Assembly (NCBI GenBank): GCA_030622395.1
Contig: JAUXGF010000018.1
Span: 1 to 12,750, forward strand
Direction of reading: 5' to 3'
DNA: 12,750 nt
DNA from: Calditrichaceae bacterium
GTDB taxonomy: Bacteria > Calditrichota > Calditrichia > Calditrichales > Calditrichaceae
Below the pieces are notes generated by a model. The model did no database searches. It saw only the letters and a program-made list of their open reading frames with translations, and was not told where the DNA came from. Below, piece by piece: positions 3,391-12,750 of the stretch (within the stretch, counting starts at the first letter, position 1; every line of letters starts with the position of its first letter). The position numbers and the translations under genes are program-made.

Positions 3391-3478
3391 ATAATGGGAA
3401 GAGTTGGAGTGATGGGGTAATGGGAAGAATGGAATGTTGGAATGATGGAATGTTGATGAAGAATTGGAGTGATGGGGT
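3391..3478 (+). repeat. Purine-rich intergenic repeat tract with near-octamer units
   Basis: Directly after the peptidase stop, the + strand is almost pure G/A/T. Units such as GAATGTTG and GAATGATG alternate with an 8-bp step around 3431-3453. A longer copy, TTGGAGTGATGGGGT, occurs at 3404-3418 and again at 3464-3478, exactly 60 bp apart. The second copy abuts the group II intron. No coding potential is seen. Confidence 0.7.
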
Positions 3479-4043
3479 TACCTGGCGCTGGTTCTCTGCC
3501 GAGAGAGAATAGGAAGCCCTCCTGAGTAAGGTATAGTCAACCGCTCAGTAGTGTAATGTCCATAAAGCGTAAGTTTTAAGGACAGATAAGCGAGTGTAAC
3601 GAGGTGAAGGGTGTAGCTCTGAATCTGAAACATAGCCCCGAGAACCAAGTATTTTGGGTGAGAGCCGATCCTGTCCAGTTTGGCGCAGGCTATAGGGTAA
3701 GGCACGCTAATGACGAGTGTTTACCCCCCCCCCGGGGTCTAAGACAGCATCAAGTACACAACGACAGAGAAGTAACCAGGCGAGCGACGGGAACTGGTAT
3801 GTCTATAAATAAGGTAGACTTAGCTATGAAGCGACTAACCCCCGCCGAGCGAAAGTTCCTGCGATTAATCGACCGTGAAAGGGAAACATAGACATTATGC
3901 AAGGAATGATTATTCGATGAGCACAAAACTTTCATGGATAGGTGAGAAGGCGAGATGATCCGCCGGGCTCGATCTCGAATAATAGGACATCTCAATTATT
4001 ACGCCATCACAGATAACTTGTGAATGTGCAGGGATTTTATATA

Positions 4044-4094: not shown

Positions 4095-4214
4095 GTCTTA
4101 CACATGGCCTGGCTTTAATCAGTTAATTTCGTGGCTGAATTGGCCAGTTCCCGGAGTTCGTGTGAACCTGAATCCTTGTTGTAGAGCTTAAATATCACTG
4201 AATGGTTAATCGAA

Positions 4215-4249
4215 GAGCCGTGTGTATGGGAAATCCGCTTGTCCGGTTC
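4215..4249 (+). ncRNA. Group II intron domain V
   Basis: The 35-nt hairpin has a lower helix GAGCCG/CGGTTC containing the AGC catalytic triad and a GAAA in the apical region (4230-4233). The lower helix pairs fully. The upper helix (TGTATGG against TCCGCTTG) pairs poorly compared with typical domain Vs, which hints at decay. Confidence 0.8.
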
Positions 4250-4322
4250 TGTGAGGGGCGGGGTACAACTGTTGCTTTGCGCTACGGAAGACCCCGATCT
4301 ACTCGATAGTAATGGAGTGGTG

Positions 4323-4911: not shown

Positions 4912-6366
4912 ATGCAATTTAAAGAACATACAATTACACAGGTACATGAAAACCTGTTTGAAATTCCTCAGACAGGCGCCATGCATAAACCCGGCAGAAT
5001 CTATGCTTCGCTGGAAATGATGAAAAGTTTAATAGATGAAGGCGAGCCGCTTCAACAGGTAATTAACGTAGCCCACTTGCCGGGAATCGAAAAATATTCT
5101 CTGGCTATGCCCGATATTCACTGGGGATACGGATTTCCAATCGGCGGGGTGGCGGCGACAGACTGGCAGGATGGCGTTATATCGCCGGGCGGAGTCGGTT
5201 ATGATATTAACTGCGGGGTGCGTTTAGCTTCAACCTCATTAAAACGCGGGGATATTGACAATCGCCTTAATAAATTGATACAGGATTTATTCAGGACTAT
5301 ACCGACAGGGCTCGGCTCGTCTAACGCTATTAAAAAACTAACTAAACAGGAATTGAAAAAACTGCTGCAAACCGGCGTTTCATGGATAATTAAGCAGGGC
5401 TACGGAACAGAACATGATATTGAATACACCGAAGAAAACGGCTGCCTATCCTGGGCTGATCCTTCAATAATAAGCGAACGGGCTTTAGAACGCGGTCTGG
5501 CGCAGATGGGCACATTAGGTTCGGGCAATCATTTCCTCGAGGTGGATGTAGTCGATAAAATTTACGATCCTAAAGCCGCGGCGGCTATGGGCTTGTTTAA
5601 AGAGCAGATTGTAGTTTTAATTCACAGCGGCTCGCGCGGTTTTGGCTACCAGGTTTGCGACGATTACTTAAAGATTATGGGAAAAGCCGCTCAAAAATAC
5701 AACATCCATTTGCCTGACCGGCAGTTAGCTTCGGCGCCTATTCAAAGCAATGAAGGTAAAAACTATCTGGCGGCTATGGCTTGCGCCGCTAATTTCGCAT
5801 GGAGCAACCGCCAGGTGATCATGTCGTTAGCTAAACGCGTTTTTATGAGAGTATTTAATATTTCCGATTTGGATTTAAAATTTAATTTGGTTTATGACGT
5901 ATCGCATAATATCGCTAAAAAGGAAATACACAAAATCGATTCAAAGGAAAAGGCTGTTTGTGTTCACCGCAAGGGCGCTACCCGCGCTTTTGGACCTAAC
6001 AGTCCTTTTATTCCCAAAAAATATCAGGACATTGGACAGCCGGTGTTGATTCCCGGCGATATGGGCAGATATTCATTTGTTTGTACCGGCACTGAGAAAG
6101 CAGTTTCAGAGACATTCGGCAGCGCCTGCCATGGAGCCGGAAGATTATACAGCCGCAATAAAGCAAAAAGGATGGCAAAGGGTCGTAATCTAATCAAAGA
6201 GATATCTAAAATGGGGGTTATTGTTCAGGCAAGGGGCAAGGGAACAATCGCCGAAGAAATGCCTTTTGCTTATAAAGATGTGTCTGATATAGTAGATATT
6301 ATGCACAACAGCGGCATTAGTCTTAAAACAGCCCGGCTAAAACCGCTTGGGGTGATAAAAGGTTGA
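4912..6366 (+). CDS. rtcB: RtcB, 3'-phosphate/5'-hydroxyl RNA ligase
   Basis: A 484-residue cytoplasmic ligase that joins RNA 2',3'-cyclic phosphate or 3'-phosphate ends to 5'-OH ends using GTP and Mn2+, through a histidine-GMP intermediate. All active-site residues are visible (ATG numbering): Asp98 and Cys101 in GYDINCGVRL, His207 in GSGNHFLEV, His238 in HSGSRGFG, His332 in YDVSHN, and His407, the expected guanylylated histidine, in SACHGAGR. Spacing matches Pyrococcus horikoshii RtcB to within one residue. A TTG at 4891 would add seven residues, but the ATG at 4912 is preferred because AGGAG (4900-4904) lies 7 nt before it and the protein family starts there. It follows archease in the same operon. 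No rtcA or rtcR is nearby. A role in tRNA or damaged-RNA repair is inferred, since bacterial substrates vary. Confidence 0.96.
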   Translation: MQFKEHTITQVHENLFEIPQTGAMHKPGRIYASLEMMKSLIDEGEPLQQVINVAHLPGIEKYSLAMPDIHWGYGFPIGGVAATDWQDGVISPGGVGYDINCGVRLASTSLKRGDIDNRLNKLIQDLFRTIPTGLGSSNAIKKLTKQELKKLLQTGVSWIIKQGYGTEHDIEYTEENGCLSWADPSIISERALERGLAQMGTLGSGNHFLEVDVVDKIYDPKAAAAMGLFKEQIVVLIHSGSRGFGYQVCDDYLKIMGKAAQKYNIHLPDRQLASAPIQSNEGKNYLAAMACAANFAWSNRQVIMSLAKRVFMRVFNISDLDLKFNLVYDVSHNIAKKEIHKIDSKEKAVCVHRKGATRAFGPNSPFIPKKYQDIGQPVLIPGDMGRYSFVCTGTEKAVSETFGSACHGAGRLYSRNKAKRMAKGRNLIKEISKMGVIVQARGKGTIAEEMPFAYKDVSDIVDIMHNSGISLKTARLKPLGVIKG

Positions 6367-6511: not shown

Positions 6512-6550
6512 TTTTCTTGTATCAGAGTTAAGCGTAGCGGTCTCTGATAC
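6512..6550 (+). repeat. REP-like palindromic element, copy 1
   Basis: GTATCAGAG (6519-6527) and CTCTGATAC (6542-6550) are perfect 9-bp arms around a 14-nt loop carrying TTAAGCGTAGCGG. The preceding TTTTCTTG is also present in the copy at the window end, so it probably belongs to the element. Other copies lie at 6653-6703 (inverted) and 12729-12750 (cut by the edge). Confidence 0.75.
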
Positions 6551-6571
6551 ACACGGGGGTAATTATTCTGG

Positions 6572-6641: not shown

Positions 6642-6652
6642 AACGTCGTCAT

Positions 6653-6703
6653 GTATCAGAGACCATGTCAAAGGCAGGCAGGCCGCTTCGCTTAATCTGA
6701 TAC
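6653..6703 (-). repeat. REP-like element, copy 2 (inverted, carrying a 20-bp insert)
   Basis: The arms GTATCAGA (6653-6660) and TCTGATAC (6696-6703) enclose the reverse complement of the copy 1 loop (CGCTTCGCTTAA). The two copies agree base for base except for minor changes and about 20 extra bases at 6664-6683 (starting CATG, with GGCAGGCAGGC). Copy 1 therefore looks like the empty site. Confidence 0.7.
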
Positions 6704-6717
6704 GAGGGAAGTTAAAG

Positions 6718-6799
6718 TAGGAAGTGGGAAGTGGGAAGTAGCCCCGAGGGGGTCGCTGCGCGAGAAGTAAGAAGTAGGAATTAGTCCCGGCGGGACTAA
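6718..6799 (+). repeat. Heptamer repeat array with nested palindromes
   Basis: 7-bp units GTAGGAA, GTGGGAA, GTGGGAA run from 6718 to 6738. Then comes CCCC GA GGGG, a short GC-rich stretch, and three more units GAAGTAA, GAAGTAG, GAATTAG (6764-6784). It ends in the perfect hairpin TTAGTCCC, loop GGC, GGGACTAA (6781-6799). Confidence 0.7.
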
Positions 6800-7020
6800 A
6801 TGTTTGTAGGAAAAAAGAACCCCCAAAAAAGGGAAGCCCCATACGCAGTATCCCTGTGGGACGGGGCGTTATGAAAATTTTAATTAATGACTGCCCGATT
6901 CAAGTGGGTGACGCAGAAGAATGGAATCCTAAAAAATTGGTCCCGAACCTTCGGGATGAGATTTGTTGTTTCCAGTTTATCTAGCTTAGGCATAAACAAC
7001 AAAGATAGATGAACATGTTT

Positions 7021-7184
7021 CCCCTTAGAAAAGGGGATTAAGGGGTTGTAAAAACTGCTAGTTAGTACAATATGCCGGATTAAGTAGAAACATGCGGTTA
7101 ATGAACTCATTTTTCTTGTGAACACATTATAGACAACCCCCTTACCCATGCCTGACGGCAGGCACGGCCCCTTTTTTAAGGGGG
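7021..7184. repeat. MITE-like element with about 29-bp terminal inverted repeats
   Basis: The left arm at 7021-7049 starts CCCCTTAGAAAAGGGG and ends AAGGGGTTGT. Its reverse complement recurs at 7133-7184, from ACAACCCC to TAAGGGG. The right arm is interrupted by a 21-bp insert (7147-7167) that contains the hairpin TGCCTG ACGG CAGGCA. The 83-bp interior has no coding sequence. It has the form of a small non-autonomous element. No target duplication is obvious. Confidence 0.6.
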
Positions 7185-7306
7185 AATTAGTTTAATCCAT
7201 TTAAAAATATGAGGTTAATTCAAGAATTGATGAAAACTTTTGACACTACACGGATTAACCTAAGGGGGCGCTGCATGAAAAGATTGAGGATTTCTATTTA
7301 AAAGGA

Positions 7307-7384
7307 CAGGAGTAAGGGCAGAAGGCCCTGGTTTTTTTTACGCCTCACTTCTCTTACCTCCCCTCTGCCGTTTACTCCGCCCTG
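7307..7384. repeat. Imperfect inverted repeat around a pyrimidine-rich spacer
   Basis: CAGGAGTAAGGGCAGA (7307-7322) matches the reverse complement of 7364-7384 with a 4-base gap and two mismatches. Between them the + strand is mostly C and T. T8 runs follow both the left-side GGCCCTGG (7331-7338) and the right arm CCTG (7385-7392). It could end transcription from either side, but I regard it as one more member of the local repeats. Confidence 0.4.
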
Positions 7385-7542
7385 TTTTTTTTATAATATT
7401 CTTAGTTAGTTTGTAATAGTTCAGCTCCTGTATAAATTCAATTGCCCTGACACATCCGTGGAACATCGTATAGTGTAGAGCGGGAAGCGTTAAGCGAAGT
7501 AAGAAAAGAGTATTACGTAATTCCAATCTCCGCTCTTTTCCA

Positions 7543-7584
7543 CTCTCCGCTTCACGCTCTCCGCTCTCCGCCTCACGCCCTACG
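7543..7584. repeat. Heptamer array, six units (CTCTCCG type)
   Basis: Six perfectly phased 7-mers run from 7543 to 7584. CTCTCCG occurs three times, interleaved with CTTCACG, CCTCACG and CCCTACG. An isolated ATCTCCG lies at 7526-7532. Confidence 0.75.
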
Positions 7585-7641
7585 TTCTATAAATAATTAC
7601 CTTTAATAATAATGTGCAGTTTGAAATAGCTGAACTATTAG

Positions 7642-8505
7642 TTAGTTTTTTGCAAGAACTACTAAATACTTCATTTTCCAAAACTCATCCGGGTCTATAA
7701 TTTCTAAAACTGTCTTGTCTTCATCTTTTTTTGTCAAATGGTATGATTCCGGATTATGATTAGAAATTATTTTTATATCTTTAATATTCTGTTTGATGGA
7801 AATACTATCGGTATCGGAAATATCTGTAGCGGTAAAATCTGTTTTTTGCAAATCAGAGGCTAATATCTTTGTTTTCCCGAACCACAGGAAACCGCCTTTT
7901 TCGGTGATAATCTTTTTATTCTTTAATTCCTTATTTGTCCCGATAACATAGTAGGCTGTATTTATTTTTTCGGTTTGTTTTTCTATTACTTCATTACTTT
8001 TTTGCAGGTCTTCTTCAACCTCAGCCACTTGTATGTATAATTTGTCCACCTGTTCTTTTAATTCGATAATATGAGTTTCTTTTTCCTCTATAGTGCGGCT
8101 TAAGGTTTCAACCATCTCCTCGAAGGATGAGGATTTTACTTGTGAATTCTTTATCTTGGATTTTAATTGTTTAAGCTGGCTTTTACTGTTTTTTATGTAT
8201 GAGTCCATGCTGGCTATATTTTGCAGCATTTTATCTTTGATAGAAGCTTCTTTATCCTTTTCAACATTTTTAGAATATTTTGTGATGAAACCTTCGCGTT
8301 TGCGGATGTTTTCTAAATTGTCATAAATATCATTGACTGTTTTTGTATATTCTTCAACAAATTCGTCTTTCATATTAGACTGTTCGGCAAGAAGTTTAAC
8401 TTTGGATTGTAAAGTCTGATTTTCTTCTGTTAACTGGTCAATTTTTTGTTGATTGCCGCAGCCAAAGAAAGTTACTAATAAAATAAGAATTGCTGTGTAC
8501 TTCAT
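7642..8505 (-). CDS. Coiled-coil lipoprotein of unknown function
   Basis: A 287-residue predicted lipoprotein. The N-terminus has a hydrophobic core and FFGC with Cys16 as the acylated residue. Residues about 20-183 are rich in E, K, Q and L in heptad-like spacing and predict a long coiled coil. Residues about 184-287 form a separate globular tail with YYVIGT (185-190), KGGFLWFGKT (203-212) and DPDEFW (271-276). This layout resembles a coiled-coil lipoprotein type common in Bacteroidota. Some members are annotated as collagen-binding adhesins, but nothing here proves adhesion. It is the second gene of an operon. Its ATG lies 2 nt after the upstream stop, and its Shine-Dalgarno AAGGAG lies inside the upstream gene's last codons, so translation is coupled. 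A structural or envelope-tethering role is inferred. Confidence 0.8.
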   Translation of the reverse strand: MKYTAILILLVTFFGCGNQQKIDQLTEENQTLQSKVKLLAEQSNMKDEFVEEYTKTVNDIYDNLENIRKREGFITKYSKNVEKDKEASIKDKMLQNIASMDSYIKNSKSQLKQLKSKIKNSQVKSSSFEEMVETLSRTIEEKETHIIELKEQVDKLYIQVAEVEEDLQKSNEVIEKQTEKINTAYYVIGTNKELKNKKIITEKGGFLWFGKTKILASDLQKTDFTATDISDTDSISIKQNIKDIKIISNHNPESYHLTKKDEDKTVLEIIDPDEFWKMKYLVVLAKN

Positions 8506-8507
8506 GA

Positions 8508-8945
8508 TTATTTCTCCTTAATTTCCCAATAATTTAATGAATCTTGTTTAATTGACTCAAAAACAATTTTTCCTTCTTCTGTTTGAAAAATCTTTCCTTC
8601 ATCCAGCATGGCAAATTTGATGGTAGATTTATCCAAAAATATTTTACCTTGTTCATCTTTGCGGTTATTTTTTGAATTCATAGTGTATTGAAATTTGATT
8701 TCATTATCCAGAGAGTCAAGAGCTTTAATTTCCATAGTAAACAGATTTTTACAGCCTTCAGAATTATTATACCCAATATAAAACTTTTTAAAATCATTCA
8801 TATTCAGTTTATTAATACTGTTAGTTTGCGTCAGGCTGTCAGTAGTTTGTTGATTTTGTTCAGCCGCCTTTGTTTTTTGTCCTCCTTCATCATCTGCATA
8901 AGCTGTAATAAAAAAAAGAAAAAGAAAAATGATTACGCCCCGCAT
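8508..8945 (-). CDS. Small secreted protein of unknown function
   Basis: 145 residues when started at the ATG at 8945, which has a strong Shine-Dalgarno AGGAGGT just upstream (8949-8955 on the + strand). An ATG at 8993 would add 16 residues before the signal peptide and is rejected. The protein opens with a Sec signal peptide, MRGVIIFLFLFF, and a likely cleavage after AYA (residues 15-17). A Q/T/S/N-rich linker follows to about residue 45, then a compact, probably beta-rich domain to 145 with a single Cys in EGCKN. I do not recognise the family. It leads the two-gene operon with the coiled-coil lipoprotein, so the two products probably act together at the envelope. The single Cys gives no internal disulfide. 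No transfer signs are seen in the gene itself. Confidence 0.75.
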   Translation of the reverse strand: MRGVIIFLFLFFITAYADDEGGQKTKAAEQNQQTTDSLTQTNSINKLNMNDFKKFYIGYNNSEGCKNLFTMEIKALDSLDNEIKFQYTMNSKNNRKDEQGKIFLDKSTIKFAMLDEGKIFQTEEGKIVFESIKQDSLNYWEIKEK

Positions 8946-9042
8946 TTTACCTCCTATAATAATTGATGTATTGAAAATTGATAATTGGTACACCGATCTG
9001 CAATTGATTTACAATAATGAGTATCGGTATAACTGTCAAGAC

Positions 9043-9096
9043 GAAATGGTTAAACTGCCCCGCAGTCGGGATTTCATAAATTCAACAAACCATTTC
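9043..9096. repeat. Nested inverted repeat upstream of the secreted-protein operon
   Basis: GAAATGGTT (9043-9051) and AACCATTTC (9088-9096) are perfect 9-bp arms. Inside lies a second perfect hairpin, ACTGC CCC GCAGT (9054-9066). It starts about 100 bp upstream of the - strand gene start, so it could be regulatory, but it also looks like the small palindromic repeats elsewhere in the window. Confidence 0.5.
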
Positions 9097-9175
9097 TGTT
9101 CCAGTATATATTCTTTATTCTGTAATTTGATTTCTATATTCGGAATAACTTTAGAACTGGGAATTGCTTTAGTTT

Positions 9176-9196
9176 CTAATTCCTAATTCCTAATCC
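9176..9196. repeat. Heptamer run, three units (CTAATTC type)
   Basis: CTAATTC, CTAATTC and CTAATCC are exactly phased at 9176-9196. The unit is close to the reverse complement of the GAATTAG unit at 6778-6784 and to the AATTAGG units near 12705. Confidence 0.6.
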
Positions 9197-9400
9197 CCGG
9201 TTAAGCAAACATTGATTCTAAATTTCACCCTTAAGATTAGTTAGATCTTCAATTTTAATCTATCCTACAAATTGAATACCAAAGCCGCTGATATTTGATA
9301 AAAACTGAAATTATTTTTAATAATGTTAAAATAAATACGTTATTTATAGGTTCTTAAGTTTGTTAAATTGCAGGGATGAAAATGAAAATAAAACCGTATT

Positions 9401-9420
9401 AAAATAAAGCGCTTTATTTT
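9401..9420. promoter_or_regulatory. 20-bp perfect palindrome, possible operator
   Basis: AAAATAAAGC is followed directly by its reverse complement GCTTTATTTT, with no loop. Such full dyad symmetry suits a dimeric DNA-binding protein better than an RNA hairpin. It lies between the divergent operons, before the heptamer array. The regulator is unknown. Confidence 0.4.
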
Positions 9421-9454
9421 GTGCAATATCTATACATTAAAAAGATAAAACCTG

Positions 9455-9790
9455 TACTGGTTGCTGGATACTGGTTACTGGATACTGGATAAAGAGGCTT
9501 GAGCATCCCTGCATCCAGTAATCGGTAATCAGTAACCGGTAATCGGTATCCCAGCGAAAGTATGATTTCCGCTCCGCTCCAACCGGAATCCAGTAAGCAG
9601 TAGGCAGTAATCGGTAAGCAGTAATCGGTAATCAGTATCCAGCATCCAGAATCCAGCACCCAGTATCCCCCGCGAAAGCATGATTTCCGCTCCGCTCTAT
9701 CCAGCATCCAGCATCCAGTATCCCCGCAAAAGAAGGATTTCCGCTTCGCTCCAACCGGCATCCAGTAACCAGTAACCAGCATCCAGCGCC
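9455..9790. repeat. Composite heptamer array with three interspersed 34-37-bp cores
   Basis: 28 heptamers occur in five blocks: 9455-9489 (TACTGGA type, five units), 9516-9550 (five, CAGTAAT/CGGTAAT), 9591-9667 (eleven), 9702-9722 (three, CAGCATC/CAGTATC) and 9763-9790 (four). Three copies of a longer unit sit between blocks, at 9550-9586, 9667-9700 and 9722-9758. Each has CGAAAG or CAAAAG near the start and GATTTCCGCT followed by CCGCTC or TCGCTC. Two of the three end in CAACCGG. The first block is the reverse complement of the later ones. Because 7 is not a multiple of 3, the - strand frame across it reads as a repetitive W/Y/L/D peptide, which I treat as spurious. Confidence 0.85.
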
Positions 9791-9904
9791 AAGCGTCTAT
9801 TCTCTTAAATTTAATTTAAACTTTCTGTCATTTTTATTTTAGAATTATGAGTATTTTTCGTAAACTTATAAAATTTAATTGAAGATCAATCATAGGAGTA
9901 AAAC

Positions 9905-11401
9905 ATGCCCAAAGAAATCTACTTTGAACCATCCAGAACGCTGATGGAATTTCGACTTTTGCCCGGCTTAACTACGGAAGAAACAAAAATTGAAAATATA
10001 TCATTGCGCACTCCGCTTGTGCATTCCGAAAATAACCAGCCGAAATATTACCTCAATACGCCGGTCGTTGCAGCCGCAATGCAGTCGGTTTCAGGGGTAG
10101 ATATGGCTATCGAGCTTGCCAAGCTGGGAGGAACGGCTTTTATTTACAGCTCTCAAACCATAAAACAACAGGCGCAAATGGTGTCGGGAATTAAAAATTA
10201 TAAAGCGGGTTTTGTAGAACCCGAAACAGTAAAGCCTGAAACTTCTATTGTTGAGTTATACGAATTATCTCGCAAAAAAGGATATGGTACTTTTCCGGTT
10301 GTAGATTTAACCGGAGTGCTTCTCGGCGTTATCACAAAAAATGATTACGATGTTAAGCTTCATGAAAATCTTAAAGTGCATAACAGGATGATTAAAAGAG
10401 AAAATTTAACGGTTGGTATTAATATTGAGGACATAAAAGATGCAAACGCGCTTTTAATGGAAAGTCATCAATCAGTGCTGCCTATTGTGAATGATAAAAA
10501 TAAATTGCGCTATTTAGTTTTCAGAAAAGATATTAGGAATCATCTTGATAATCCTTTGGAAGTTGTAGATGAAGAAAAAAGGCTGCTGGCTGCCGCCGCT
10601 GTTAATACGCATGATTATAAAGAAAGAGTTCCCGCCCTGGTGGATGCGGGAGTTGATATTCTGGCAGTTGATTCTTCCGACGGGCATTCAGTTTTTCAGC
10701 AAAAAACTCTGCGCTGGATAAAAGAACATTATTCCGATCTGCCGGTGATCGGGGGGAACATCATAACAGGGCAGGGCTTTGATTTTCTTGTCGATGCCGG
10801 GGCGCGCGCTGTAAAGGTCGGTATGGGCGGCGGTTCAATCTGCATTACTCAGGAACAAAAGGGGACAGGCAGAGGACTGGCTACGGCTATTATCGAAGTA
10901 ACCGAAGCAAGGGACAAGTATTATCAAAAAAGCGGCAGATATATTCCTGTTATTGCCGACGGAGGCATTGTCAACGCCAAAGACGTCACTATCGCCCTTG
11001 CTCTCGGCGCTGATTATGTGATGATGGGAAGATATTTTGCCAGAATGGATGAGGCGCCCACAAGTAAGGTTACAATCCATAACCAGATTATGAAGCCGTA
11101 CTGGGGCGAAGGCGCTCCAAGAGCGAGGGAATGGAAAGCGGCGCGTTATTATCAAATGGAGTTTGCCGAAGGGGTGGAAGGATTTGTACAATACGCCGGA
11201 AAGTTAAGAGATAATCTGCCGGAAGCGCTGTCTAAAATCAAAGCTTCCATGTCGTCTTGCGGATCCGCTAATATTGAAGAATTTCATAAAAAAGCTAAAC
11301 TTGAAATTGTATCCGCGCTTTCTTTAAGGGAAGGACAGGTTCACGACATATATCTCCCACAGAAAGACGGAAACTATCATTCTATAAACTGGGGAAATTA
11401 A
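9905..11401 (+). CDS. guaB: Inosine-5'-monophosphate dehydrogenase (Tritrichomonas-like type)
   Basis: A 498-residue cytoplasmic enzyme that oxidises IMP to XMP with NAD+, the committed step to GMP. It is a TIM barrel with a two-CBS-domain insert at about residues 105-215. Seen directly: VDSSDG with Asp256, the GGN loop at 283-285, the catalytic Cys313 in GGGSICIT, the flap with EGAPRAREW (402-410), and the Arg414-Tyr415 pair that serves as the catalytic base. The Cys loop GGGSICITQEQKGTGRG and MKPYWGEG match the Tritrichomonas foetus enzyme and its bacterial relatives rather than the usual bacterial GPGSICTTR type. AGGAG at 9894-9898, 6 nt before the ATG, supports the start. It is the first gene of an operon with purA. 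The heptamer array ends 114 bp upstream. An AT-rich TTATAAAAT (about 9866-9874) may include the -10 region. Confidence 0.96.
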   Translation: MPKEIYFEPSRTLMEFRLLPGLTTEETKIENISLRTPLVHSENNQPKYYLNTPVVAAAMQSVSGVDMAIELAKLGGTAFIYSSQTIKQQAQMVSGIKNYKAGFVEPETVKPETSIVELYELSRKKGYGTFPVVDLTGVLLGVITKNDYDVKLHENLKVHNRMIKRENLTVGINIEDIKDANALLMESHQSVLPIVNDKNKLRYLVFRKDIRNHLDNPLEVVDEEKRLLAAAAVNTHDYKERVPALVDAGVDILAVDSSDGHSVFQQKTLRWIKEHYSDLPVIGGNIITGQGFDFLVDAGARAVKVGMGGGSICITQEQKGTGRGLATAIIEVTEARDKYYQKSGRYIPVIADGGIVNAKDVTIALALGADYVMMGRYFARMDEAPTSKVTIHNQIMKPYWGEGAPRAREWKAARYYQMEFAEGVEGFVQYAGKLRDNLPEALSKIKASMSSCGSANIEEFHKKAKLEIVSALSLREGQVHDIYLPQKDGNYHSINWGN

Positions 11402-11402
11402 T

Positions 11403-12623
11403 ATGTCAAAGTATATTGTATTAGGCGCTCAATGGGGAGATGAAGGAAAAGGTAAAATAGTCGATCTGATTTCAGGTAAAATGGATCTGGTGGTAAGATT
11501 CCAGGGCGGCGCAAATGCCGGTCATACGGTAGTAATCGGCGATAAAGAATATATTCTGCATATCATTCCCTGCGGTATTATTTCGGGTCACGCTAAAAAT
11601 GTTATCGGAAACGGATGCGTAGTCGACCCGCTGATATTTTGCGAGGAAGTTGATTACCTGAGTTCTAAGGGAATTAATGTAACTCCCGATGATCTTTTTA
11701 TATCGTCTCAGGCGCACATGGTAACGCCGATACATAAATTTTTAGACAGGATGCTCAATACGAAAATCGGTACTACAGGCAGGGGCATTGGGCCTTGTTA
11801 TGTGGATAAAGTTCAAAGAACGGGCATCAGATTAAATAGTATTTTAGACGGATCTTTTATAAAGACTTATCTTGAGCATGCGCAAATGTATAAGCAAATT
11901 ATCGAACAAGCTCCCAGTAAAATTTCTATCAATTTAGACGAATCGCTTGAACAGTTGAAAGCCGCCGCTGAACGATTATATCCTTTTATATGTGACAGCG
12001 TGGAGATTATATACGAATCCGTTCAAAAAGGGGATAATATTCTTTTTGAGGGAGCCCAGGGAACGCTGCTTGATATTGACCACGGAACATATCCTTTTGT
12101 TACTTCGTCATCAACGAGCATAGGCGGCGCTTATACGGGTTCGGGAGTGTTTGTAGAATTTGATAAGCGTATTGCAATTGTGAAATCCTATACAACCCGA
12201 GTCGGAGAGGGACCGTTTCCTACGGAACAGGATAATAAAATCGGTGAACAGTTGAGGAAAAACGGCAATGAATTCGGAGCTACCACCGGACGTCCCAGAC
12301 GCTGCGGCTGGCTTGACCTGCCTCTTTTGAAACGCTCATTTATTATTAATGGATTTAATTATATATCCTTAAGCAAGCTGAGCTGCTTATCCGGTTTTGA
12401 TAAGATAAAAGCAGCCGTTAAATATGATGACAAATTTCATCCAATATACAAAGACTTCCCGGGATGGAATGAAGAAATAGAAGGAATTACCGATATTGAC
12501 AAACTACCGGTTAATTGCCGGAAGTACATAGATTTTATAGAGGAATTTCTTGAGGTTCCCGTAGGAATGATTTCCACAGGCCCGAAGCGTAAGGATATTA
12601 TTTTTAAAGAACCGCTGTGGTGA
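11403..12623 (+). CDS. purA: Adenylosuccinate synthetase
   Basis: A 406-residue cytoplasmic enzyme that joins IMP and aspartate using GTP to give adenylosuccinate, the first step from IMP to AMP. The P-loop GDEGKGK is at residues 12-18 with the catalytic base Asp13. GGANAGHT carries His41, the acid that polarises GTP. TTGRGIGP, EGAQGTLLDIDHGTYPFVTSS and the TTGRPRRCGWLD stretch cover the IMP and aspartate sites. The end ISTGPKR is the conserved guanine-binding C-terminal motif. It is slightly shorter than the usual 425-430 residues, but no motif is missing. It starts 1 nt after the guaB stop, with a weak GGGGA Shine-Dalgarno inside guaB, so it is likely translated by coupled ribosomes. No convincing terminator follows. 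GTAAA/TTTAC at about 12635-12650 is only a 5-bp stem. Confidence 0.97.
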   Translation: MSKYIVLGAQWGDEGKGKIVDLISGKMDLVVRFQGGANAGHTVVIGDKEYILHIIPCGIISGHAKNVIGNGCVVDPLIFCEEVDYLSSKGINVTPDDLFISSQAHMVTPIHKFLDRMLNTKIGTTGRGIGPCYVDKVQRTGIRLNSILDGSFIKTYLEHAQMYKQIIEQAPSKISINLDESLEQLKAAAERLYPFICDSVEIIYESVQKGDNILFEGAQGTLLDIDHGTYPFVTSSSTSIGGAYTGSGVFVEFDKRIAIVKSYTTRVGEGPFPTEQDNKIGEQLRKNGNEFGATTGRPRRCGWLDLPLLKRSFIINGFNYISLSKLSCLSGFDKIKAAVKYDDKFHPIYKDFPGWNEEIEGITDIDKLPVNCRKYIDFIEEFLEVPVGMISTGPKRKDIIFKEPLW

Positions 12624-12683
12624 TGGCGGGGGAGTAAATTTGTTTTTACGAAATAGGGATGAGTTTGGAAGTAGGAATTTTTT

Positions 12684-12718
12684 AATTACGAATTACGAAT
12701 TTGGAATTAGGAATTGGG
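12684..12718. repeat. Heptamer array, five units (AATTACG/AATTAGG type)
   Basis: AATTACG, AATTACG, AATTTGG, AATTAGG and AATTGGG are exactly phased. The sequence before it (GGAAGTAGGAATT at about 12667-12679) echoes the GAAGTAG/GAATTAG units at 6771-6784. Confidence 0.75.
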
Positions 12719-12728
12719 CGCTTATGAG

Positions 12729-12750
12729 TTTTCTTGTATCAGAGTTAAGC
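12729..12750 (+). repeat. REP-like element, copy 3 (cut by window end)
   Basis: 22 bases identical to 6512-6533, starting TTTTCTTGTATCAGAG, in the same orientation as copy 1. The second hairpin arm would lie beyond the window. The identity includes the TTTTCTTG before the palindrome, which shows the element is longer than the hairpin alone. Confidence 0.7.

Follow-up and report, generated by a model that had tools for sequence, protein, structure and literature searches.

The intergenic DNA of a Calditrichaceae bacterium contig (JAUXGF010000018.1, analysed over its whole length of 12,750 nt and called the window here) carries several short tandem arrays of 7-bp and 8-bp words. These arrays are probably the arms of small intergenic hairpin elements of an S23 type, of which the window holds gene-less or decayed members. 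A complete element would consist of a G-rich array of n words of 7 or 8 bp, a loop, and a complementary C-rich array; in gene-bearing copies, the loop would hold one four-helix-bundle gene of PF05635, the 23S rRNA intervening-sequence family (S23/IVP). The window copies have no such gene, with two putative paired hairpins (7476-7584 and 9455-9790) and otherwise presumably single, truncated or unpaired arms. What we observed directly is the anatomy of these elements, their polarity, their specificity for PF05635 relative to two control families, the matching of their arms, one junction with and without an element, and one difference of whole units.

Arrays of period 7 or 8 often bracket PF05635 genes

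We tested the idea that small four-helix-bundle genes are located among such repeats. The source genome (3.05 Mb in 522 contigs, 76.6% complete; the window is the entire contig C448) has four matches to PF05635, which represent three genes, all among arrays: L209 on contig C357, L210 on C474, and L211-L212 on C376, the last broken by an insert that was seen by eye. By eye, a short repeat (TTAAACTGCCCCGCA...) at about 9030-9100 of the window also interrupts the C376 gene (L212, about 1676-1770). There is no PF05635 match in the window itself. The family is present in 36 of 40 genomes of Calditrichota.

We applied a fixed rule (an array of period 7 or 8, score 9, within 250 bp of the gene) to a pool of 146 PF05635 genes with full flanks, 118 of them outside and 28 within a cyanobacterial set. 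An array lies upstream of 110 genes, downstream of 110, on both sides of 95 and on neither side of 21. Ninety-three of the 95 both-sided genes use one period, and 77 have G-to-C polarity, with five running C-to-G and 13 having the same bias on both sides or none. The pool comprises 28 of 31 one-per-genome Calditrichota genes, all 21 further copies from three genomes (G001, G005 and G007), 14 genes out of 16 additional loci, 28 of 29 cross-phylum genes (L313 and L226 being one gene, L313 was excluded), 27 genes out of 29 Pseudomonadota loci, and 28 of 30 cyanobacterial genes. Further copies excepted, loci are the best match per genome, with at most 30 per search; we dropped loci with a flank shorter than 200 bp, more than 20 N, or no full domain by our own hidden Markov model, and the broken C376 gene was not counted. 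The 146 genes are not independent because some loci are close relatives (L387, L390 and L394, all with arms; L399 and L400, without), and the cross-phylum set is biased because its genomes were picked for holding an array of the word GAAGTRG (50 of at least 118 loci, one per organism by our own choice). Both-sided genes make up 20/28, 14/21 and 10/14 of the Calditrichota sets and 16/28 of the cross-phylum set; the rate is highest in Cyanobacteria (21/28) and lowest in Pseudomonadota (14/27).

Results were similar when periods from 3 to 15 were allowed: arrays lie upstream of 25, downstream of 24 and on both sides of 22 of the 29 best Calditrichota loci with full flanks; the corresponding numbers are 17, 17 and 15 for 21 further copies, and 24, 22 and 21 for 30 loci spread over many phyla (L313 and L226 again being one gene). 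A few PF05635 genes have arms of other periods, namely 10 (L310, Fimbriimonadaceae), 13 (L305, WOR-3) and 9 (L473, Calothrix genome G054).

Shuffled flanks carry a period-7/8 array in 2 of 236 cases. For PurA genes, an array was found in one of 56 flanks of at least 200 bp, and on both sides of none of 26 genes; with flanks of at least 100 bp, 2 of 57 have an array, and the additional one is the array that follows purA in the window. (An earlier PurA comparison used 20 of 30 loci; the later one used every flank of at least 200 bp.) RAYT genes (PF01797; 25 of 30 loci) have a period-7/8 array in 0 of 50 flanks of 250 bp and 1 of 50 flanks of 400 bp, although 11 of the 25 have complementary flanks of another kind. 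Given these controls, the arrays go with the PF05635 gene rather than with any small mobile gene. The same arrangement occurs in G001, whose genome is a single contig, and in named strains from culture, Winogradskyella vidalii among them, and single array-bracketed PF05635 loci were also found in Bacteroidota, Chloroflexi, Nitrospirota, Acidobacteria and others.

PF05635 occurs in 44 of the 50 genomes chosen for a GAAGTRG array, in 43 of them above the family cut-off, as compared with 37 of 200 Pseudomonadota, 40 of 79 genomes from the phylum to which Calothrix belongs and none of 14 control genomes; this comparison is only indicative because the phylum mix of the 50 genomes differs. A GAAKTRG pattern occurs in two of the 200 Pseudomonadota (G061 with 100 matches and G155 with two), both with PF05635; the reversed control gave 14 matches in four genomes, and the resulting two-by-two test is too thin. 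A sequence comparison of the L210 protein with the PDB gives 2gsc (XCC0516) and a weak match to 2rld as relatives, along with short matches to two designed ankyrin-type chains. One of two tested S23 proteins weakly matches the Avd-like family (bAvd, 30.8 bits; cut-off 40). In diversity-generating retroelements, Avd is accompanied by a reverse transcriptase and by template and variable repeats.

Facing arrays have a fixed polarity

We also sampled arrays throughout the source genome, using 60 of the 522 contigs (348 kb including 28.6 kb of N, 319 kb without; 54 kb non-coding and 265 kb coding), with genes called by our own simple Markov model rather than curated annotation and an array score of at least 10. 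Neighbouring strand-biased arrays no more than 250 bp apart are G-then-C in 14 cases, G-G in ten, C-C in seven and C-then-G in none. This polarity is independent of contig orientation, since a G-then-C pair still reads G-then-C on the opposite strand. We then aligned 66 gene-less arrays of the source genome to the reverse complement of the 300 bp on either side. Twenty-seven have a partner with a score of at least 14 on the side predicted by polarity, and none has one on the other side; overall, the predicted side scores higher for 47 arrays and lower for 17.

Some arrays of the window are not independent of each other. The array at 7476-7503 pairs with that at 7539-7584 in a long hairpin; the RNA fold of 7440-7605 has a free energy of -48.6 kcal/mol (z -6.14), and none of 200 shuffles is as low. 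Likewise, 9457-9488 is 88% complementary to 9755-9786 over 32 nt, and 9457-9487 is 84% complementary to 9619-9649 over 31 nt; the fold of 9440-9800 has a z of -3.03.

Arms tend to match within an element while words vary between elements

The word varies from one element to another, but within a single element the arms tend to be alike. For 45 of 78 elements, the element's own downstream arm is the best match of all 78, and for 61 it is in the top three; 48 of the 78 exceed the 99th percentile of mismatched arms, as compared with 0 of 20 PurA loci. Arm likeness also increases with protein identity: alike arms were found for 1.4-5.2% of pairs below 50% identity, 20% of 51 pairs at 50-60%, 36% of 11 pairs at 60-75%, and all three pairs above 75%, these three coming from one trio of related loci. 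We conclude that arms are inherited with the gene but turn over fast. In the source genome, the upstream arms of the three PF05635 genes score 26.2, 24.0 and 28.8 against the genome's own gene-less arrays; the maximum for 46 foreign arms is 23.2.

One case of a whole-unit difference was found. The L366 and L367 copies of genome G039 have 1,836 bp of identical sequence, apart from one arm, where the difference is exactly 35 bp or five units. We rejected these two copies as proof of transposition, since one is bounded by N. The idea of a single degenerate word shared by all families was set aside, because elements with AATTACG, TTGTTGAG and GTAGGCA words share the architecture.

A junction with and without the element

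The L245 element of G001 sits between two co-directional open frames. In G003, G008, G013 and G014 the corresponding junction is 21-54 bp long and has no array. In G004, which belongs to the genus of G001, it is 268 bp long and carries facing gene-less arrays with other words, in the order G-rich 8-mers and 7-mers, then C-rich 7-mers and 8-mers. Other genomes carry different inserts at this junction (L415, L420 and L424): by eye, G005 has a RAYT-like frame, G006 an MNT/HEPN-like pair and G012 a GIY-YIG-like frame. The site is perhaps a hot spot for small elements. Two copies of an AAGGGG/CCCCTT-type repeat that were seen by eye in the window (about 7020-7060 and 7130-7190) resemble inserts at this junction in G007 and G009.

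Other elements lie within operon-like gene pairs (names assigned by eye): L209 between hdrA-like and mvhD-like genes, and L367 between two FtsX-like permease genes. We rejected the hdrA-mvhD junction as an empty site for L209, since by eye the upstream gene in L343-L345 looks different and L346 has a heptamer-like stretch of its own. The L244 junction was likewise dropped, because the query matches a repeated gene family.

Arrays in the window, the genome and other bacteria

The preliminary description of this DNA listed several arrays that keep an exact 7-bp step with differing units. All of them are present: Tandem Repeats Finder (TRF) reports arrays with a period of 7 or a multiple at 6715-6739, 7539-7571, 9176-9194 and 12684-12715, and in several rows within 9455-9787, and our own finder detects a second short array at 6763-6784. 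The 7-bp step also stands for these arrays. The fraction of matches at lag 7 in the non-coding DNA of the window is 0.324, as compared with 0.265 ± 0.007 for 200 dinucleotide shuffles (z 8.0), with smaller excesses at lags 14 (z 5.4), 21 (z 3.3) and 17 (z 3.2) and none at lag 7 in coding DNA (0.259). However, the region 9455-9790, described as one array, consists of several arrays in two orientations with copies of a GC-rich spacer between them, and 7 is not the only period, since the window also has an 8-bp array (3430-3455, by TRF). The spacer (GATTTCCGCTCCGCTC) repeatedly breaks the TACTGGA arrays, at about 9553-9578, 9669-9696 and 9726-9750, and it also occurs in L050 (about 5573-5600, 5640-5657 and 5691-5720). 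A minus-strand open frame of 122 aa (9414-9782) is built from the array itself and is likely to be annotated as a hypothetical protein. If the arrays are hairpin arms, this would account for repetitive hypothetical proteins called from such arrays.

An excess at lag 7 in intergenic DNA genome-wide had been suggested as a check. In the 60-contig sample the excess is there, but lag 8 is at least as strong (z 14.6, as compared with 11.1 for lag 7). Non-coding DNA has 34 period-7 and 40 period-8 arrays, where shuffles lead us to expect 0.75 of each, and coding DNA has two and one; period 7 as the sole period is therefore rejected. Other lags have 0-5 arrays, multiples of 7 and 8 aside. Array counts are the cleaner measure, because lags 2-5 have z values of 7.6-8.8 in this sample and only 0 to 2 arrays.

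That the unit families are peculiar to this genome, or that nothing similar has been described, is not supported. A 19-base GAAGTRG pattern with up to two mismatches has 112 matches in the genome and none when reversed. The exact 26-base pattern occurs in at least 118 stretches of species-representative genomes (a count made without a reversed-pattern control), the record titles of which name more than 15 phyla; titles among the matches listed include Bacteroidota, Cyanobacteria, Chloroflexi, Nitrospirae, Fibrobacter, Acidobacteria, Gammaproteobacteria, WOR-3, Elusimicrobia and others. Excerpts of two papers already report an over-representation of heptamers, with those of Calothrix, Xanthomonas and Nostoc (PMC4692102), and TAACTGA arrays (PMC4679880).

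Proposed mechanism and alternative explanations

We propose that replication slippage would add and remove whole units, so that a strict step is kept while the word drifts, and that the arms would stay complementary since each can template the other in fold-back. The period and not the sequence would then be kept, because any word repeating in 7 or 8 works. The S23/IVP protein may bind the arm hairpin, as RNA or DNA, and help to copy or protect the element; gene-less copies would be dependants or remnants. The earlier suggestion of a common generator, rather than the copying of one repeat, is partly supported, in that one architecture with different words brackets PF05635 in many genomes.

Several observations weigh against this proposal. 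A period-7/8 array is absent from both 250-bp flanks of 21 of the 146 genes, the L209 gene has G-rich arrays on both sides and merely a short C-rich stretch, and arm periods of 9, 10 and 13 occur beside 7 and 8. Four other stretches of the window form no hairpin (z -0.46 to 1.29), and the fold of the entire L210 element is no more stable than those of its shuffles (z -0.78), for which reason we rejected a stable RNA fold of the whole element. We also rejected a protein that strictly sets the period, since period 7 or 8 is only loosely clustered on the protein tree (10 changes, as compared with about 13 when shuffled; 75 proteins, few columns). The 35-bp difference between L366 and L367 may be a strain or assembly variant, because L366 adjoins N gaps. 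Gene-less arrays outnumber genes, with three PF05635 genes in the genome and 79 arrays in about a tenth of it, and the at least 118 GAAGTRG loci include five PF05635 genes, four of these stretches having the gene within 165 bp; many arrays may therefore never have had a gene. Array density speaks in favour of the proposal, in that four genomes without a PF05635 match (G015, G024, G026 and G027) have 0 period-7/8 arrays in 97.9 kb, as compared with 13 in 197.6 kb of six genomes with PF05635 and 79 in 319 kb of the source genome, but this comparison of densities is small and confounded with family. Published work adds further points against it, as far as excerpts of the papers go: according to the authors, Coxiella probably does not produce its S23 protein in vivo and the gene is in decay, which speaks against a protein needed there (PMC4990558); Nostoc PCC 7120 has few paired repeats (PMC4692102); and 83% of the repeats of one Xanthomonas species lie in the same gene context in another, suggesting slow change and inheritance rather than frequent movement (PMC4692102).

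The strongest competitor, which we consider rather unlikely, is that the arrays come first: heptamer hairpins would arise by themselves through slippage and fold-back synthesis, and PF05635 genes would insert into their loops as a target, with the protein uninvolved. This would fit the far greater number of gene-less arrays than genes, the facing gene-less arrays with other words in G004 where G001 has a gene-bearing element, and the 36 matches in G002 to the L245 query, of which those listed are all in arms, such that the word is dispersed without a gene-bearing copy. It fits less well with the L245 junction being short and array-free in G003, G008, G013 and G014, with arm likeness tracking protein identity, or with the absence of period-7/8 arrays from 97.9 kb of PF05635-free genomes, a small and confounded sample. 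Plain replication slippage could in principle suffice, if 7-8 bp is the favoured length of polymerase slips and heptamers build up in free non-coding DNA (a hypothesis cited in excerpts of PMC4692102). It would explain a strict step with drifting words and changes by whole units, as between L366 and L367 and between Coxiella strains (excerpts of PMC4990558), yet it leaves unexplained the facing pairs of fixed polarity (77 genes as compared with 5; 27 arrays as compared with 0), the matching of arm words, and the bracketing of PF05635 but not of PurA or RAYT genes. As an explanation on its own it is improbable; slippage is insufficient as the whole story, and we retain it as part of the explanation that we favour.

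That the arrays are sites near start codons for a regulator that binds DNA or RNA, an idea put forward for TAACTGA repeats in Beggiatoaceae (excerpts of PMC4679880), is more improbable still. Sixty-one of the 83 sampled arrays with two gene neighbours do lie between co-directional genes, but arrays of the window lie after genes as well as before them, and one regulator could not read the arrays by sequence because words differ freely between sites. An artefact of assembly or binning is barely conceivable. The source is a draft metagenome genome, incomplete and in 522 contigs, and sequence from the end of the contig recurs at about 6517; against this, the architecture is shared by the single-contig genome G001 and by named strains in culture.

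Taking the arrays as arms of S23-type elements, it is conceivable, though we would put this at somewhat short of an even chance, that they represent a widespread, unnamed class of mobile hairpin elements. The S23/IVP protein would be the element's own factor, the inverted termini would be self-renewing tandem arrays, and the conserved property would be a step of 7 or 8 bp together with G-to-C polarity. Gene-less derivatives, which by extrapolation number several hundred in the source genome, might then account for a large share of the heptamer repeats reported in cyanobacteria, Xanthomonas and other bacteria, with rRNA intervening sequences as a special case that landed in 23S rRNA. The over-representation of heptamers in bacterial non-coding DNA and the role of the S23 family are two separate puzzles, and each is now a handle on the other. 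The bracketing of PF05635 by mirrored words of fixed polarity in Calditrichota, Cyanobacteria, Pseudomonadota and other phyla leads to testable predictions. In the open subset of PubMed Central, we found no paper linking genome-wide heptamer arrays with S23 or four-helix-bundle genes, the Coxiella paper aside.

Relation to known repeats and intervening sequences

In REPIN/RAYT systems, a genome contains many small hairpins without a gene and few that carry one. The elements described here are alike in this respect, but RAYT-type genes (PF01797) lack period-7/8 arrays (0 of 50 flanks of 250 bp).

Some 23S rRNA intervening sequences (IVSs) lack an S23 gene. The IVS of Coxiella burnetii has a 28-bp terminal stem with an S23 gene in the loop and is cleaved by RNase III; GACAGAT heptamers, three or two depending on the strain, precede the gene; and the S23 protein of Xanthomonas has a solved structure, a homopentamer of four-helix bundles (excerpts of PMC4990558). 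IVSs, which have been called selfish elements, resemble the gene-bearing elements described here in having an S23/PF05635-type gene in the loop of complementary arms and, in Coxiella, heptamers just before the gene. They differ in that an IVS lies inside the 23S rRNA gene and is excised by RNase III, whereas the elements described here lie between protein genes, with many 7-8 bp words and many gene-less copies. By location, the window does not hold a 23S IVS: Rfam at gathering thresholds finds just a group II intron there.

The tandem heptamers of cyanobacteria are known as STRR repeats. Like the arrays of the source genome, STRR and the GGGGA(C/T)T repeats of Nostoc are dispersed, intergenic, tandem 7-bp units; their hosts are cyanobacteria, whereas the source genome belongs to Calditrichaceae. 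One cyanobacterial PF05635 gene (L483) is bracketed by arms of GGGGACT type. These cyanobacterial heptamers are described as free tandem repeats, with few inverted pairs reported in Nostoc PCC 7120, and excerpts of PMC4692102 mention no tie to a gene. The GGGANTN heptamers of Xanthomonas are heterogeneous and mostly intergenic, with 70 and 75 convergent pairs in two species (excerpts of PMC4692102). They thus resemble our arrays in their heterogeneous words and convergent pairs, and a Xanthomonas S23 protein exists (XCC0516, 2gsc). They differ in being mostly conserved in place between the two species and in being read as G-quadruplexes, with no tie to an S23 gene in the excerpts of that paper (PMC4692102). 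By reading, the arrays of the window at 6715-6739 (two GGG) and 12684-12718 (one) lack the four tracts of GGG or longer that a G-quadruplex has. TAACTGA direct repeats are common to distant phyla (Beggiatoaceae, Cyanobacteria and Bacteroidetes); they have a single word and, in the main genome studied, lie mostly just upstream of start codons, with one indirect repeat there (excerpts of PMC4679880).

Features of the window

We compared each array stretch of the window with 147 PF05635 elements, scoring it against the maximum of its shuffles (Table 1). All 13 of the 13 stretches score above their own 20 shuffles. These matches indicate likeness of words, not descent, because shuffling removes the tandem step and each flank used in the comparison spans 250 bp.

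Table 1. Array stretches of the window, with their closest PF05635-associated arms
Feature	Position	Strand	Basis	Context	Best PF05635 arm match (score)	Shuffled maximum
G-rich octamer arm, TGGAATGT/TGGAGTGA	3391..3478	+	TRF, period 8 at 3430-3455	Directly downstream of M2/M3-like peptidase gene, group II intron fragment next; no opposite arm found; no self-fold (z 1.29)	Upstream arm of own-genome element L210, contig C474 (29.1)	18.9
Two G-rich heptamer arrays (GAAGTRG), 6715-6739 and 6763-6784	6715..6784	+	TRF, own finder	Short palindromic insert between arrays; no C-rich partner within 350 bp; fold z -0.27	6715-6739: arms at L466 and L374 (20.6)	15.8
G-rich 5' arm of gene-less hairpin (GTAGAGC GGGAAGC GTTAAGC)	7476..7503	+	Pairs with 7539-7584		Resembles arm of L209, contig C357 (16.4)	13.3
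C-rich 3' arm of the same hairpin (CTCTCCG)	7539..7584	+	TRF, fold	Pairs with 7476-7503	L209 arm (28.8)	17.4
Possible weak G-rich partner of 9170-9197, not established	9141..9167	+	By eye, pairing score 8.1	Fold z -0.46
C-rich heptamer array (CTAATTC)	9170..9197	+	TRF, lag analysis, own finder		Best arm (17.6)	13.6
G-rich 5' arm of composite gene-less hairpin (TACTGGA/TACTGGT)	9455..9491	+	Complementarity, fold		Arm at L381, locus of G029 (24.0)	15.1
Heptamer array GTAATCGG within composite hairpin	9515..9552	+	TRF		Word family of array beside own-genome broken C376 gene, L212 (23.4)	14.2
Heptamer array (CAGTAAG/CAGTATC)	9588..9666	+	TRF		L318, Microcystis (28.9); L387/L394, Pseudomonadota (26.6/25.6)	15.0
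C-rich heptamer array (ATCCAGC)	9695..9723	+	TRF		L381 (24.6)	14.7
C-rich 3' arm (CAACCAG/CATCCAG)	9752..9790	+	Complementarity, fold	Closes composite hairpin with 9455-9491
G-rich heptamer array (AATTACG to GAATTAG)	12684..12718	+	TRF	After purA	L480, cyanobacterial set (25.4); L244, G001 (23.2)	19.0

Any partner of the array after purA is not visible, because the contig ends 32 bp further on. Five family members with full-length purA loci (L282 and L287-L290) have no period-7/8 array within 250 bp of purA. The octamer array is directly followed by a group II intron match at 3513-3747 (RF02005, 69 bits); by eye, there is a domain-V-like end near 4200-4290, such that the intron perhaps extends to about 4290, with no long intron protein frame between. 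Lastly, an imperfect palindrome seen by eye (GTATCAGAG ... CTCTGATAC) is repeated at about 6517-6554, 6650-6702 and 12733-12750, the contig ending inside the last copy at 12750.

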